Below, piece by piece: positions 25,164-33,761 of a stretch of DNA of 64,000 nucleotides. The position numbers and the translations under genes were made by a program. Numbering within the stretch: position 1 is the stretch's first letter; every line of letters starts with the position of its first letter. The notes under the pieces are model-generated. The model was given only the letters and a program-made list of their open reading frames with translations, made no database searches and had not been told where the DNA came from. Origin of the DNA: an uncultured Mycoplasmatota bacterium (GTDB taxonomy: Bacteria > Bacillota_I > Bacilli_A > Izemoplasmatales > Izemoplasmataceae). The DNA is taken from the NCBI GenBank assembly GCA_913062645.1, contig CAJXVW010000001.1, positions 1-64,000 of the forward strand. The letters are read 5' to 3'.

Positions 25164-25628
25164 TTCGTTTTTCGCCCAGTTGATGAACTGTTCCATTTTT
25201 TCGGAGTTGTTGATTTCTTCATCGTGTTTGATGCCGAGACGGCGGCGGACGATGAACTTCTCCTTCAGGGAGAGATTCTTGTATTTGATGCGACCACCGC
25301 AATGAACGATTTTCGCTTCATAGAAGATGTCGGGAGGCATACTCTCTTGAACGGCATAATTGAATTCTTCTGTGTTCATCCCGGCACAGAAGATGCCAAG
25401 CCGTTTTTTCATGAGCTTCAGTTTGTGAATCGAGAAATATCGCGATGTGTAGTGTTCGATTTCTCCTTCATAGATCGGTGCCCCGATCAAAATCGTTTCG
25501 AAATCGTTGATGTCAAACTCGTCGGAATGAATGTCCATCATGACACTGTCCGGGATTTGGTTTTTAATGGTACGAGCGCATTCCTCTGTGAACCCACTCT
25601 TGGTCTCGTAGATGATTAAGGTTTTCAT
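25161..25628 (-). CDS. Flavodoxin-domain protein
   Basis: A 155-residue flavodoxin-type protein. The FMN phosphate loop TKSGFTEECA is at residues 9-18 and GAPIYEGEI (about 49-57) matches the second FMN loop of the flavodoxin_5/HemG-like group. It could be a protoporphyrinogen-oxidase-like or general electron-transfer flavoprotein; no other haem genes are near, so the former is unsupported. GGAGGAATCCC precedes the ATG, and its stop overlaps the shared terminator. Confidence 0.85.
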   Translation of the reverse strand: MKTLIIYETKSGFTEECARTIKNQIPDSVMMDIHSDEFDINDFETILIGAPIYEGEIEHYTSRYFSIHKLKLMKKRLGIFCAGMNTEEFNYAVQESMPPDIFYEAKIVHCGGRIKYKNLSLKEKFIVRRRLGIKHDEEINNSEKMEQFINWAKNE

Positions 25629-28467: not shown

Positions 28468-29850
28468 CTATAGTTTCTTGACGAAGTAGTAGCCTTCGAT
28501 GGCGACGTTTTTCTGACGAATGAAGATGGTCGTCGGCGACAGGGCGAAATTCAGTTTGCGCCACAGATTAATCGCTTCGATCTTGTCATCGGAAGACCAT
28601 CCCCGCAGTTGTTTGATGCCTTTTCTGCGGAAGTATTGTTCCGTTCTGGCAACGAGTTCGGAGGCGATGCCCAGTTTGCGGAAGCCGGGGGCCACTTCGA
28701 TGATATTCATGTAGGCTTCCAGCTCGGCTTCGAGTGGTGAAGTCAAGGGCCTGACGTAAGTGGAGACGAAACCGATGATACGTTCGCCTTCCAAGGCGAC
28801 AAGGGAACAATCCTCCTCGTCAAGCGAAATGTGGTTGTAGGCCACTTCACCATATTTGGTCTTGATCAGTTCCTTGTCCTCGAAGGTGCAGGGGCGGAAC
28901 GTGAACTGATCGAGCGCAGATGGTTCGTCCGCTTCCTCTTTGACGTGCAGGAGCGATTTGAGGATGTTGACACCAAGCGACACGTACGTGACGACCACCA
29001 TCAAGGCCAGGAGGCCTTCGTCGGCGCGGCCGTAGTAGAAGAACTGTTCTTCGCTTAGCAACGACCAAAGCAGCAAAAACGTCGACGTGCGAATGTAAAA
29101 CAGGAGAATCTTGTGCGTGTAGGTTTTGTTGACGATAGAAACGATGAAATCCAACACGAGAAAGAATCCGCCACCGATGAAGAGCGTTCCAATCAGCTTT
29201 TCATCGGCATCGAAGTTGCGTTGAATGGCGATCGAGATTGCGACGACGATCGCCATGTTGACGATACCGAAGAAGGTGTATCGTTTGTACAGGTAAATCT
29301 TGTAACCGTAGTACCCGATCGTGGTGACGGCGATCAGTACATAGAGGAAATACAACCACCCGTATCCACCTTGATTGGGATAACAGACCGTTCCGATGTT
29401 GGTGAATCCGCATCCGCTGATGAGCAGATGCAGGGTGTCGACGGCAAGGAAGATCGGAAGCAGGATCCACAGTTCATAAACGACGATCTTGCGGGTGATG
29501 AGCAGCACCCGCACGGCGAGAACGATGAGCAAGATCAGATAGATGGTGATGATGTTCTGGATCTCCATCATGTTTTGGAACGTGTAGAAATAAACGACAA
29601 CGTTGCCAACCAATCCAAAGGCCAGCTGTTTGTACTCGTTGGTGTTGGGTACATGGAGTTTGTCGTATTTGATCAAGAGAACAATGACGAATCCGATCAC
29701 CGCCAGGACGATCAGATTGACGAACAGACTGATGACGTGAATCTCGAGCCGCGGATTCTCGGCATAAAGCGCCACCAGACCCCAGATGAACGGGGGCAGG
29801 ATGAAAAAGACGTAACTCAGTATGAAGTACAGCCTCTGCAGACGTTTCAT
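28468..29850 (-). CDS. Polytopic membrane protein fused to a GNAT acetyltransferase domain
   Basis: A 460-residue fusion. About nine hydrophobic helices occupy residues 1-300, and a GNAT domain fills about 310-445: FRPCTFEDKELI start, the acetyl-CoA loop VAPGFRKLGIASELV and a NLWRKLNF end. The membrane half has no family I know. Layout suggests acetylation of a membrane-associated or lipid-linked substrate. I chose ATG 29850 because AAGGAGG is 8 bases upstream; ATG 29856 is only 2 bases away. Confidence 0.82.
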   Translation of the reverse strand: MKRLQRLYFILSYVFFILPPFIWGLVALYAENPRLEIHVISLFVNLIVLAVIGFVIVLLIKYDKLHVPNTNEYKQLAFGLVGNVVVYFYTFQNMMEIQNIITIYLILLIVLAVRVLLITRKIVVYELWILLPIFLAVDTLHLLISGCGFTNIGTVCYPNQGGYGWLYFLYVLIAVTTIGYYGYKIYLYKRYTFFGIVNMAIVVAISIAIQRNFDADEKLIGTLFIGGGFFLVLDFIVSIVNKTYTHKILLFYIRTSTFLLLWSLLSEEQFFYYGRADEGLLALMVVVTYVSLGVNILKSLLHVKEEADEPSALDQFTFRPCTFEDKELIKTKYGEVAYNHISLDEEDCSLVALEGERIIGFVSTYVRPLTSPLEAELEAYMNIIEVAPGFRKLGIASELVARTEQYFRRKGIKQLRGWSSDDKIEAINLWRKLNFALSPTTIFIRQKNVAIEGYYFVKKL

Positions 29851-29998
29851 ATGCATTACCTCCTTTCTACTTTCATTATACTCCTTTTATCCGGAAAACA
29901 CCATCGCCGATTGATTGCATATAGTTAGCAAGCAAACTAATTGATTTTCCCGTTGATATGGGCGATAATGAAGTGAACGAAAAAGGAGTGTGACACAC

Positions 29999-30703
29999 AT
30001 GAAAATCGAACTCTGGAGCGACTTTGCCTGCCCCTTCTGTTACATCGGCAAGAAGCGCTTCGAACAAGCACTGGACGCGTTTCCCCACAAAGACAAGGTC
30101 GAACTCGTCCTGAAGGCGTATCAACTGAACCCCAACGCCCCCAAAGAAATGAAAGAGAGCGCCGCCGAGACCTTCGCAAAAGGACATCGGATGAGCGTTG
30201 ACAAAGCCAAGGAACGGTTCGCGATGTTCCAAGAACAGGCCAAGACCGTCGGTCTCACCTACAACTACGACATCATCCAGATGACCAACAGTTTTGACGC
30301 CCACCGCCTTGCCAAATGGGCCAACCAGTACAACCTGGAATACCAACTCACTGGTCGTCTGATGAAAGCGTATTTTACCGATGGACGCAACATCGCCGAC
30401 ACCGACACGCTGGTGGAACTGGCGGAAGAACTGGGCTTGGACGGCACCGAAGCCAGACGGATTCTTGACAACGGAGAATTCGCCGACCAAGTCAAAAGCG
30501 AAATCACCGAAGCGCGTCAGATCGGCGTGCAAGGCGTACCGTTCTTCGTGCTCAACCGCAAATACGGCGTCAGCGGCGCACAACCCGTTGAATATTTTAC
30601 GGCCGTGTTGGAAAAACTATGGGACGAGGAAAAGCCCCAGTTTGAATCCATTGATGGCGCCGACAAGGGCGCAACCTGTACCGACGACACCTGTGAAATC
30701 TAG
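29999..30703 (+). CDS. DsbA-family oxidoreductase, FrnE-like
   Basis: A 234-residue thioredoxin-fold protein with an inserted helical domain. The redox motif CPFC (C11, C14) and GVQGVPFFVLNRKYGVSGAQ are those of FrnE-type DsbA proteins. No signal peptide, so cytosolic disulfide chemistry. The C-terminal extra CTDDTC pair could act as a second redox site, as in Deinococcus FrnE. ATG 29999 follows AAAGGAGTG; GTG 29990 overlaps it. A hairpin follows. Confidence 0.92.
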   Translation: MKIELWSDFACPFCYIGKKRFEQALDAFPHKDKVELVLKAYQLNPNAPKEMKESAAETFAKGHRMSVDKAKERFAMFQEQAKTVGLTYNYDIIQMTNSFDAHRLAKWANQYNLEYQLTGRLMKAYFTDGRNIADTDTLVELAEELGLDGTEARRILDNGEFADQVKSEITEARQIGVQGVPFFVLNRKYGVSGAQPVEYFTAVLEKLWDEEKPQFESIDGADKGATCTDDTCEI

Positions 30704-30731
30704 AAACCGATCGATTCGGTTTCTTTTTTTT
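30702..30731 (+). terminator. Terminator of the FrnE gene
   Basis: GAAACCGA/TCGGTTTC (30703-30710, 30716-30723) followed by T8; the stop TAG abuts the stem. Confidence 0.83.
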
Positions 30732-30753
30732 GCGAAAATGAGCCATCATGTCG

Positions 30754-30770
30754 GTATATATCTATGAAAC
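30754..30770 (+). promoter_or_regulatory. Motif shared with the lipoprotein promoter (copy 1)
   Basis: GTATATATCTATGAAAC; the second copy at 32532-32548 differs at three of 17 positions. Both lie before genes of the sigma/anti-sigma/lipoprotein locus, so this may be a shared promoter or operator. A separate TATAAT for the sigma gene is at 30807-30812. Confidence 0.4.
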
Positions 30771-30833
30771 GTCAGTAACGTGCATTGTCCAACGCACATC
30801 AAGTGATATAATAAAGACGAAAGGATGATGCGT

Positions 30834-31376
30834 ATGGACGATCTCCAAGTGATCCGCCTCGTACTGCAAGGCAAGACGGACCATTACGGCCAACTTATGG
30901 AACGCTACCACAATGAGATGTTCTCATTCGTTTTCAACATGGTCGGCCAGTATCAGGACACCGAAGACCTGGTGCAGGAGATCTTTTTCAAAACCTACGA
31001 GAACTTGTCCAAATACGATCCTGACAAATCGGCGTTTCGAACCTGGCTCTACCGCATCGCCTCGAATCATACGATCAACTACTTGAACTCCGCCTTTCAC
31101 CGCAAACACACAGCGAGTGACATCGACACCTCGTTTCTCGAAGATGAGACCGACATTGAAGCGGAGGCAATCAAGGCGGAACGGATACGGATGATCGTCG
31201 CCGCGATGAAGAAGCGATTGTCCAAAAAGCACCAGAACATCGTCGCGTTGCATTATTTCTCCGGTCTCAGCGTCAAGGAGATCAGCGAGACGCTCGACAT
31301 ACCCGACAAGACCATTTACAAAGCACTCAAATCCAGCATTGACAAAATCAAACAGGAGGTGACGATCGATGGATAA
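30834..31376 (+). CDS. ECF-type RNA polymerase sigma factor
   Basis: A 180-residue group 4 sigma factor. Region 2 (MERYHNEMFSFVFNM through QDTEDLVQEIFFKTY and FRTWLYRIASN) recognises the -10 element; region 4 near the C terminus (HYFSGLSVKEISETL, then a helix-turn-helix) recognises -35. Length is normal for ECF factors. ATG 30834 follows AAAGGA by 8 bases. It overlaps the next gene, a single-helix membrane protein, by 8 bases; that partner is the presumed anti-sigma factor. Confidence 0.93.
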   Translation: MDDLQVIRLVLQGKTDHYGQLMERYHNEMFSFVFNMVGQYQDTEDLVQEIFFKTYENLSKYDPDKSAFRTWLYRIASNHTINYLNSAFHRKHTASDIDTSFLEDETDIEAEAIKAERIRMIVAAMKKRLSKKHQNIVALHYFSGLSVKEISETLDIPDKTIYKALKSSIDKIKQEVTIDG

Positions 31377-32505
31377 ACTGAATCGCCGCATCAATCCCGA
31401 AGCTCTCGAGGCATCGAAACATCGTACGATGACCGCGGTCATGGACAAGATCCAGGAACGCGAACGCAGGTCGTCCGTTTTACGTCGCCTTGTGACACCG
31501 GCGCTCGTGCCGGCATTCATTCTCATCTTCGCACTTGTCATCGTGTTTTCACCCGGTGCCACCACCCCCGACGACGGCCATGGCGACATCAGTGCCTACG
31601 AATCGGAACGACTGGCCGAGATTTCGTATCTGTCCGCCAGTTTCATCGGCGCCGATCTGACGGTGTCGGATCCGCTCTTCCGGTTCTTGAACGACACCGA
31701 TACTACACAGTTCGAGACCAATGATGAAACGATCAACTTCTATTTTGACACGCTGCGCGTATTCCTGGACGAGGATGCCTTCGCCCAGTCGATCGCATTC
31801 ACCGAACTTGAGGATTCCGAGTTCGACTACCTCATCACGTTTGACATCAATGGCATTCCCCATGAGTTCTACCTCGTCATCATCGACGGCGAGATTTCCG
31901 GACAACTGGTTGTCAACGCGGCCGTGTTTCTTGTCACCGGATCGTACGAAGAGACCGACACGGAAACAACCATTGAGATTGACGCCGTTCGCGGTGACGA
32001 TCATGTCATCATCCGCTACAGCCGCGAATCCGACGAGGATTTGGAAACCAAGTACGAAGTCCAAACCCGCATCAACGGCATCGAAACCGAGCGCAACATC
32101 AAGCTCTCCATCGAGGACGACGAAGCCAAAGTCGACATCGAGGAGGGAGACAACTCCTATCAGCTTAAGAAAGAAACCGAAGACGGCGTCATCGAATACA
32201 AGCTCGAATACACGCTCAACGGTGTCAGCGGACAAGCCCGCATTACGGAAACGACCGATGCGTTCGGACAACCTCTTTATTCCTACCAGGTTCAGGAAAA
32301 CGGCAAAGAGGTGGAGGTTACCCGCGGACGCCCGAACTACGATTATGATGACAACCCGGGGAACAACGACGATGACAATCCGGGAAACAACGACGACAAC
32401 CCCGGCAACAGCGATGACAATCCCGGCAACAGCGGCAACCCAAGCAACAATCCCAGTCAACAATCTTACGACCAAGAATACGACCTATCAAAAAATATTG
32501 CGTAA
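31369..32505 (+). CDS. Membrane anti-sigma-like protein with external sensor domain
   Basis: A 378-residue protein: about 42 basic cytoplasmic residues, one membrane helix (about 44-60), and a large external part. The cytoplasmic end lacks the HxxxCxxC zinc anti-sigma motif, yet position and topology argue for sigma binding. The external part has two modules (about 80-205 and 208-320) that recur, in order, in the lipoprotein encoded next. A tail with four DNPGN repeats (about 324-350) ends the protein, a flexible, possibly wall-spanning linker. AGGAGGTG precedes ATG 31369, overlapping the sigma gene. Confidence 0.8.
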   Translation: MDKLNRRINPEALEASKHRTMTAVMDKIQERERRSSVLRRLVTPALVPAFILIFALVIVFSPGATTPDDGHGDISAYESERLAEISYLSASFIGADLTVSDPLFRFLNDTDTTQFETNDETINFYFDTLRVFLDEDAFAQSIAFTELEDSEFDYLITFDINGIPHEFYLVIIDGEISGQLVVNAAVFLVTGSYEETDTETTIEIDAVRGDDHVIIRYSRESDEDLETKYEVQTRINGIETERNIKLSIEDDEAKVDIEEGDNSYQLKKETEDGVIEYKLEYTLNGVSGQARITETTDAFGQPLYSYQVQENGKEVEVTRGRPNYDYDDNPGNNDDDNPGNNDDNPGNSDDNPGNSGNPSNNPSQQSYDQEYDLSKNIA

Positions 32506-32531
32506 TCAGTAGAAAATCGTCGACCCATTTT

Positions 32532-32548
32532 GTATGTATCTATGAAGA
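32532..32548 (+). promoter_or_regulatory. Motif shared with the sigma-factor upstream region (copy 2)
   Basis: GTATGTATCTATGAAGA, similar to 30754-30770 (14 of 17 identical), 23 bases before the lipoprotein start codon. Confidence 0.4.
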
Positions 32549-32571
32549 CCCATCTAAAAAGGAGCGGAATC

Positions 32572-33720
32572 ATGAAGAAATTATTGACATTCATCATCGC
32601 ATTTGCAGCAACATTGACGCTTGCCGCTTGCGGCAGCGGAACCGAACAAGACATCGTAGCAGATAATCTGTCCAGCGAGGAAAGCCTCGCGACCTTGAGT
32701 TATCTCTCGGCCGGCTTTCTCGATTTCAGCACCCCGACCAACGTACAAACCGGTCTGGTGTTCCTGAATGACGAAGACACGACCGTCATCGAAGAAGAAC
32801 TCGATGACGTAAATCTCTATTTCGACCGTCTCAAAGGCATGATCGACAACGGTGTGGAATCCTTCGGCAGTGTTGTCGAAGAGGCGAGTGACAATGAACT
32901 CTATGAATACAAACTGACGTTCACCGTCAACGAAGAAGTCTACCTGATCTACTACAACCTCGACGACGTCACCGGCGAAATGACCGGCATCATCATTGTC
33001 GGCGATCAGGAGTACACCTTCGAAGTCGTCGACAACATGCGCGAGTACAAATACGGCGAACAAGAGAAAAACGAGAACGCCCAGCAGAGCTCCGAACAGA
33101 ACGCCAACCAGAACAACGACGGCGGCGGCGCTCAGAATCAGGATCAGGAAGACGAGCAGAACGGCAACGCCAACCAACAAAATCAAGATGACGACGTCGA
33201 CACCGAAGACGAGGTAGACGACGAGGTCGATACCGAAGAGGAAGACGACGAAGACGACGCCAACGAAACCAAGATGATGTTGGTGGCGCACAGTGGCGAC
33301 GACACGATCAAGATCATGTACAAGACCGAAGTCGAAGACGATGAAACCACCACCAAGTTCGACATGGAACAGACCATCGCCGGCGTCACCACCCAGATTC
33401 GTCTGAAGATCTCGATGGAAGAAGATGAATACAAGATCGACATTGAAGACGGCGAAGACCGCTACACCTTCAAACAAGAAGTCGAAGACGACGCCATCGT
33501 CTACAAACTGACGTATCAGGTCGACGGCGTCAGCGGCACCGTCCGCATCACCGAAACCGTCGATGAAAATGGCGAAACCGTCTACGAATACCGCATTCAG
33601 GAAGCCGGCAAACAGCGCAACGCTGAACGCGGACGTCCCGAATCGAAAGGATTCGACGATGACGATGACGAAAGCGAAGACAATGAAGAAGATACCGAGG
33701 ACGACAGCAACGAAGCATGA
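32572..33720 (+). CDS. Lipoprotein that duplicates the anti-sigma external domain
   Basis: A 382-residue lipoprotein: signal peptide with lipobox TLAAC (C20), module 1 (about 38-165, LSYLSAGF and NLYFDRLKG), an acidic Asn/Gln-rich linker (about 165-235), module 2 (about 238-352, KLTYQVDGVSGTVRITET) and an acidic tail. Modules 1 and 2 align with the anti-sigma-like protein: LSYLSAGF versus ISYLSASF, LNDEDTT versus LNDTDTT, VDGVSGTVRITET versus LNGVSGQARITET, and both end module 2 with RGRP. ATG 32572 follows AAAAGGAGCGG. It may compete with or report to the anti-sigma sensor. Confidence 0.85.
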   Translation: MKKLLTFIIAFAATLTLAACGSGTEQDIVADNLSSEESLATLSYLSAGFLDFSTPTNVQTGLVFLNDEDTTVIEEELDDVNLYFDRLKGMIDNGVESFGSVVEEASDNELYEYKLTFTVNEEVYLIYYNLDDVTGEMTGIIIVGDQEYTFEVVDNMREYKYGEQEKNENAQQSSEQNANQNNDGGGAQNQDQEDEQNGNANQQNQDDDVDTEDEVDDEVDTEEEDDEDDANETKMMLVAHSGDDTIKIMYKTEVEDDETTTKFDMEQTIAGVTTQIRLKISMEEDEYKIDIEDGEDRYTFKQEVEDDAIVYKLTYQVDGVSGTVRITETVDENGETVYEYRIQEAGKQRNAERGRPESKGFDDDDDESEDNEEDTEDDSNEA

Positions 33721-33733
33721 TATCCTCCCCACG

Positions 33734-33761
33734 AAGACGATGGCAACATCGTCTTTTTTTT
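33734..33761 (+). terminator. Terminator of the sigma-factor locus
   Basis: AAGACGATG-GCAA-CATCGTCTT (33734-33755) followed by T8, which runs directly into the next promoter (TATAAT 33764-33769). Confidence 0.86.

Follow-up and report, generated by a model that had tools for sequence, protein, structure and literature searches.

A conserved ECF sigma factor locus of wall-less Bacilli whose adjoining lipoprotein resembles the anti-sigma sensor and is probably a core sigma target

What does it mean for an ECF sigma factor gene to stand beside the genes of two surface proteins of the same kind, one a likely membrane anti-sigma factor and the other a lipoprotein? Envelope stress switches are mostly known from walled bacteria, and the question arises here in a window of 64,000 nucleotides from an uncultured Mycoplasmatota bacterium (contig CAJXVW010000001.1, positions 1 to 64,000). 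Two intrinsic terminators found by a terminator scan, one after an upstream dsbA-like gene (30702–30724) and the other at 33733–33756, enclose three genes (window 30702–33756), all on the forward strand as are the other features of this unit: an ECF sigma factor gene, the gene of an anti-sigma-like membrane protein and a lipoprotein gene. Elsewhere in the window, on the minus strand (28468–29856), a single protein combines a long, apparently multi-helix hydrophobic part with a C-terminal GNAT acetyltransferase domain.

The sigma factor (183 aa; 30825–31376, with an alternative start possible at 30834) matches Sigma70_r2 (2.3e-18) and Sigma70_r4_2 (6.4e-8) in Pfam and sigma70-ECF (2.2e-30) in NCBIfam. 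The matches span residues 4–180 and cover regions 2 and 4 and no other, which at about 180 aa places the protein among the ECF (group 4) sigma factors. The gene that follows (378 aa; 31369–32505) shares 8 bases with it (31369–31376), confirming an overlap claimed from the sequence beforehand. Its product has a cytoplasmic N-terminus (residues 1–40) with the motif K-NR-ID...SK-RT-...VM--I, one transmembrane helix (about residues 41–61), a large acidic external part and a DNPGN-repeat tail. BLASTP and a structure model divide the external part into module 1 (31597–31938), made of helices and then the first strands, and module 2 (31945–32334), made of ten antiparallel strands; the tail (32347–32502), whose repeats are plain in the sequence, is predicted to be disordered (pLDDT under 50). 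A single helix encoded beside a sigma gene is characteristic of transmembrane anti-sigma factors, and this arrangement is conserved in an alignment of 16 orthologues and at about 60 loci; we infer that the protein holds its cognate sigma factor at rest. Its cytoplasmic part of about 40 aa matched no anti-sigma model in Pfam or NCBIfam, and the HXXXCXXC motif of ZAS (class I) anti-sigma factors is absent, residues 1–60 having no Cys and the orthologue alignment no such motif. Pfam likewise detected no RsgI domain, N-terminal or central, in this protein.

The third gene encodes a 382-aa protein (32572–33720) with a signal peptide and a LAAC lipobox at residues 17–20, and its lipid-attachment residue Cys20 (32629–32631) is invariant in 22/22 aligned homologues, as expected of a bacterial lipoprotein. 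The open reading frame had been listed from an upstream TTG at 32530; the likely start is the ATG at 32572. Module 1 (32674–33036) and module 2 (33256–33627) of the lipoprotein are separated by an inserted acidic Asn/Gln-rich linker (33037–33255), evident in the alignment and modelled with pLDDT under 50. The sequence-only reading had contrasted the two proteins in both anchor and linker. The anchors do differ, a membrane helix in the anti-sigma protein versus the lipobox in the lipoprotein. Both linker-like stretches exist as well, but they are not equivalent: the DNPGN repeats form a C-terminal tail after module 2, whereas the Asn/Gln stretch lies between the lipoprotein modules.

How alike are the two external parts? 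Their likeness, module by module and in the same order, proved stronger in BLASTP searches and shuffling than had been claimed. The two modules 1 are 35% identical (E 2e-11) and the two modules 2 42% identical (E 1e-28). Over 500 shuffles, the module 1 pair scored 139 against a shuffle mean of 36 and maximum of 60, and the module 2 pair 290 against a mean of 42 and maximum of 78, whereas cross pairs of module 1 with module 2 scored inside their own shuffle range. Since only like pairs stand far above their shuffles, the likeness does not come from common acidity, and chance is ruled out with it. AlphaFold models gave both proteins the same architecture, with no module folding differently: helices, five strands and ten strands, 15 antiparallel strands in total and in the same order, the acidic linker of the lipoprotein being placed after the fifth. 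Mean pLDDT was 72.7 for the anti-sigma model (strands mostly 85–94) and 60.1 for the lipoprotein model (strands 72–84). On these models, the external parts of the two proteins probably share one barrel-like fold. The surface domain family that they form is undescribed. No convincing Pfam or NCBIfam family matched the modules (the best was an LptA model, E 0.0056, at 16 bits versus a cut-off of 234), nothing convincing matched the lipoprotein among PDB sequences, and Foldseek returned no match at E up to 0.001. VIA-align gave Z scores of 8–10 to many unrelated barrels, lipid-binding and membrane barrels among them; with such a spread and an empty Foldseek result, we rejected the fold as a guide to the ligand. 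The LolA-like fold of RseB/MucB was not among the fold matches, which were weak throughout.

How widely is the trio conserved? A search with the window protein found homologues in 23/120 relatives, and a profile search found them in 55/90 genomes of the order and 87/395 sampled genomes of the class. The trio occurs across wall-less relatives in class Bacilli, with Candidatus Izimaplasma and other Mycoplasmatota among the named records, and the orders of these relatives are reported to lack peptidoglycan (PMC10868615). A survey of gene neighbourhoods, proposed earlier as a check, placed lipoprotein homologues consistently beside sigma genes and not away from them: 82 lipoprotein genes had flanks long enough to judge, and at 63 of them a sigma gene lies no more than 2.6 kb away. 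At 56 of the 82, a model-detected anti-sigma gene is present as well; at seven, the model missed the gene after the sigma gene; where that gene was read, it encodes another single-helix protein, whose external part is on sequence inspection recognisably alike though more diverged. The order is sigma–anti-sigma–lipoprotein at 30 loci, lipoprotein–sigma–anti-sigma at 25 and divergent at 1; because the trio stays together in several orders, the linkage has outlived rearrangement. Stand-alone genes account for 19/82, several of them in larger genomes of another family (L240–L243, L246, L250) and several in genomes that yielded no anti-sigma copy; the lipoprotein thus also serves a purpose beyond the circuit. 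The window's own genome holds a solo paralogue (L075; G000:C2:539306–540190) without the promoter described below and without a nearby sigma gene. Solo genes lend some weight to a purely historical account, in which the anti-sigma protein borrowed a stable surface domain from the lipoprotein, binding now differs between the two, and a general envelope-stress sigma factor has the lipoprotein among its ordinary targets. We regard this account as improbable in view of the promoters and trees considered below.

Are the sigma and lipoprotein genes controlled together? Co-control had been suggested from a 17-base motif before both transcripts, and the motif is real: with up to 1 mismatch, GTATNTATCTATGAA occurs exactly twice in the 1.99-Mb genome, at 30754 and 32532. 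It is not a complete element, however, but only the -10 half of a two-part promoter; the -35 half, GAAAAT, starts at 30734 and at 32512. The promoter of the sigma gene (30734–30761, GAAAAT-N13-GGTATATAT) has 1 mismatch to the clade consensus and is conserved before the sigma genes of relatives, and that of the lipoprotein gene (32512–32539, GAAAAT-N13-TGTATGTAT) is conserved before orthologous genes. The promoter of the window's clade consists of GAGAAAA and then TTGTATATAT at one fixed distance; other clades have CCAATAA-N15-CGTATA. When nine spacings were allowed in the window's clade, a single one was found, and when 17 were allowed, one value held at 30/32 sites, the remaining two differing only via an alternative anchor. 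With 17 spacings allowed in the other clades, a spacing of 15 held at 68/80 sites before lipoprotein and sigma genes. Promoter sites precede 72/118 lipoprotein genes, 33/79 sigma genes and only 1/64 anti-sigma genes, the last serving as the control set; the share is lower for sigma genes because in the lipoprotein–sigma–anti-sigma order the sigma gene sits downstream in the operon. Across 14 genomes the exact window-clade pattern matched at 26 sites, and 21 of these belong to sigma or lipoprotein genes; the reversed control matched once. The same promoter also precedes unlinked paralogue lipoprotein genes (L071, L072, L074).

Sigma factors with the window-type promoter form one clade (100/100), and the sequence before the sigma gene is of the two-part, fixed-spacing kind by which ECF sigma factors autoregulate. 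Just three sites in the window's genome come within 1 mismatch of the pattern, and two of them lie at this locus; thus, on co-occurrence and clade matching, the sigma factor very probably drives its own gene and that of the lipoprotein as its core output. A conserved, fixed-spacing promoter before both genes therefore supports the proposed co-control. Within the window's clade the lipoprotein appears to be the near-sole conserved target, a near-constant status that the historical account leaves unexplained. The third genomic site (C1:331127–331154; L090) has 1 mismatch and shares GGTATATAT with the sigma promoter; no clear target follows it directly. Two other explanations of the motif were discarded: as an RNA element it has no Rfam match, and as a sigma-70 promoter it fails because the sole sigma-70-like match before the sigma gene lies elsewhere, at 30785–30812. 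This housekeeping-type site, TTGTCC-N16-TATAAT with TG before the second hexamer, was found by consensus scan and could serve basal sigma expression; the same kind of scan found no sigma-70-like site upstream of the lipoprotein gene.

Some regulons reach further. CCAATAA-N15-CGTATA precedes the gene of a secreted subtilase (Peptidase_S8) in G056 (L289), G054 (L286), G068 (L294) and G050 (L290); three of these proteins carry List_Bact_rpt repeats, and the one in G050 is truncated at a contig end. The promoter-linked subtilase may serve the same switch as a site-1 protease or as a clean-up protease. The same promoter precedes the gene of a secreted DUF2202 protein in G052 (L288) and G074 (L301), in the latter close to the lipoprotein gene and on the opposite strand, and a looser window-class site lies before the gene of a ferric-reductase-like membrane protein (G002). 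These extra targets suggest envelope functions and lack conservation across clades; the subtilase and DUF2202 genes give some other-class regulons a general-stress-like content, a point for the historical account. Two further sites are worth recording. One, with 3 mismatches to the window class (L147; G027:C4, near 25573–25609), belongs to a lipoprotein with an RsgI central domain (RsgI_M, PF23750, 1.5e-24), a second case of a lipoprotein bearing an anti-sigma external domain. The other, a perfect window-class promoter (L126; G012:C13, near 17660), directly follows a gene whose product looks like a degenerate ECF domain joined to a membrane helix with an external part, and leads within about 90 bases to a terminator-like hairpin with no gene; it is possibly a small RNA or a remnant. 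Both promoter classes, each with its own sigma and lipoprotein genes, occur within G050 (L062/L225), G052 (L063/L205), G056 (L064/L224), G060 (L056/L212) and G084 (L060/L209), which apparently hold two parallel, insulated ECF switches.

The trees bear on whether sensor and lipoprotein came to match once or repeatedly. In the window's clade, anti-sigma ectodomains (97/89) and lipoproteins (94/89) form two groups that join as sisters (100/100) and leave the copies of the other clade outside. One ancient duplication with two clean clades, as the tree of close relatives had suggested, was rejected on wider sampling. The AU test rejects a tree that unites every anti-sigma ectodomain in a single clade (p 4e-46, or 1.5e-8 once the four oddest loci are removed), with the caution that long branches and skewed composition may affect this test, and strongly supported branches alone force at least two type changes. 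Thus, the match between sensor and lipoprotein was made or re-made more than once, which a single borrowing, as the historical account has it, leaves unexplained. Pairing within loci was also dropped as a general rule: a first tree showed it at three distant loci, but with more taxa orthologues were nearest in most loci, so we narrow the claim to match events at the base of clades. Judged by branch lengths, divergence is faster on the anti-sigma side than on the lipoprotein side in most loci. The re-matching fits selection that would keep sensor and output alike.

How, then, might the switch work? In the sequence-only reading the lipoprotein may be a decoy, a co-receptor or a feedback ligand, roles for which the predicted fold offers no functional match. 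The model we prefer, to which we give an even chance, is a self-amplifying ECF switch with negative feedback through its own product, in which sensor and output would bind the same ligand. At rest, the membrane anti-sigma factor would keep the sigma factor bound. An outside signal would act on its barrel-like ectodomain, and the anti-sigma factor would either let go of the sigma factor or be proteolysed off it; an M50 site-2 protease gene in the window's genome could supply the latter. The freed sigma factor would transcribe its own operon and the lipoprotein gene from the matching promoters. The lipoprotein, carrying the same ectodomain on a lipid anchor, would engage the same ligand, a compound of the surface, the membrane or the environment; having become abundant, the lipoprotein would lower the free ligand so that the anti-sigma factor re-captures the sigma factor. 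This model starts from features read directly in the DNA (ectodomain homology, conserved linkage, the fixed-spacing promoter, near-exclusive targets in the window's clade and repeated re-matching), and it would require that the sigma factor reads these promoters, that both barrels share a ligand, that the feedback acts negatively and, in one variant, that proteolysis brings about the release. These features also allow a simpler reading, in which the lipoprotein may be a ligand-handling output and the anti-sigma ectodomain a derived copy that monitors the ligand. Against the model, there is no confident fold relative to hint at a ligand, 19 lipoproteins are solo, and homotypic contact between the two proteins would yield the same sequence pattern.

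Such contact is the basis of the main rival, an RseB-like co-inhibitor scheme, which we consider possible though rather unlikely. The lipoprotein would dock like-with-like on the anti-sigma ectodomain and shield it from a site-1 protease, a stress ligand would remove it, and newly made lipoprotein would re-seal the complex. A homotypic interface would predict the re-matching seen in separate lineages, the promoter pattern makes the lipoprotein a very probable sigma target, and a site-2 protease gene is present. On the other hand, RseB is not known to be homologous to the RseA ectodomain, searches of Pfam and NCBIfam with E values up to 1 gave no RseB/MucB match for the proteins of the locus, and the faster divergence of the anti-sigma protein in most loci is unlike a tight obligate interface. 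There is a precedent in E. coli, where RseB, bound to the external part of RseA, prevents its cleavage (PMC8103513). Ectodomain likeness and co-control would also suit a decoy with a positive effect, the lipoprotein competing with the anti-sigma ectodomain for an inhibitory partner and so prolonging the response, but no candidate partner gene is conserved beside the trio and positive autoregulation of the sigma factor already provides amplification; we think this very improbable. A broader and doubtful idea is that the sensor is repeatedly re-made from its own output gene and that the barrels pair directly, perhaps by sharing strands. The lipoprotein would then be product, feedback ligand and sensor template at once, and this self-measuring design would be general among wall-less Bacilli, a single cell holding insulated copies with GAGAAAA-type and CCAATAA-type promoters in parallel.

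The locus defines a conserved ECF switch of reportedly peptidoglycan-free bacteria, together with its promoter, an undescribed surface domain and what appears to be a near-sole conserved target. Since this target copies the sensor, what an ECF anti-sigma factor senses becomes directly testable: the ligand of the easily made lipoprotein would be the first candidate ligand of the sensor too. The recurrent matching between sensor and output provides a natural test of feedback by a common ligand, and genomes with both promoter classes offer a naturally insulated pair of ECF switches.

In a literature search with most subscription journals outside its scope, we found no described system of this arrangement, although several share parts of it. 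The RseA–RseB/sigma-E system of E. coli likewise encodes an ECF sigma factor, a membrane anti-sigma factor and an external protein in one operon, with an autoregulated sigma factor. RseB, however, is periplasmic and without known likeness to the RseA ectodomain, whereas its counterpart in the present locus is a lipoprotein with homology to the sensor, in a host from a single-membrane, wall-less group. In the sigE operon of Streptomyces, loss of the lipoprotein CseA raises sigE expression (PMC10771440). This is again a lipoprotein gene in an ECF operon, but SigE is considered to work without an anti-sigma factor, under the control of a two-component system, and no sensor copy is described. Class I/II ECF anti-sigma factors are single-helix membrane proteins encoded beside the ECF gene, with a short cytoplasmic N-terminus (PMC7406223); the anti-sigma protein here shares all three traits and differs in a cytoplasmic part of ~40 aa without zinc motif or anti-sigma model match and in its undescribed ectodomain family. 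In Clostridium thermocellum, SigI is autoregulated and the external carbohydrate-binding module of RsgI is of the same kind as those in SigI-controlled secreted proteins (PMC4711584). SigI is not a typical ECF sigma factor, the modules bind carbohydrate and the targets are many enzymes, whereas the present locus repeats the entire ectodomain in a single dedicated, adjoining lipoprotein that appears to be nearly the sole conserved target. ECF sigma factor, anti-sigma factor and lipoprotein are therefore all of known kinds; what seems new is a dedicated, adjoining lipoprotein that copies the sensor and would be a core target of the sigma factor.
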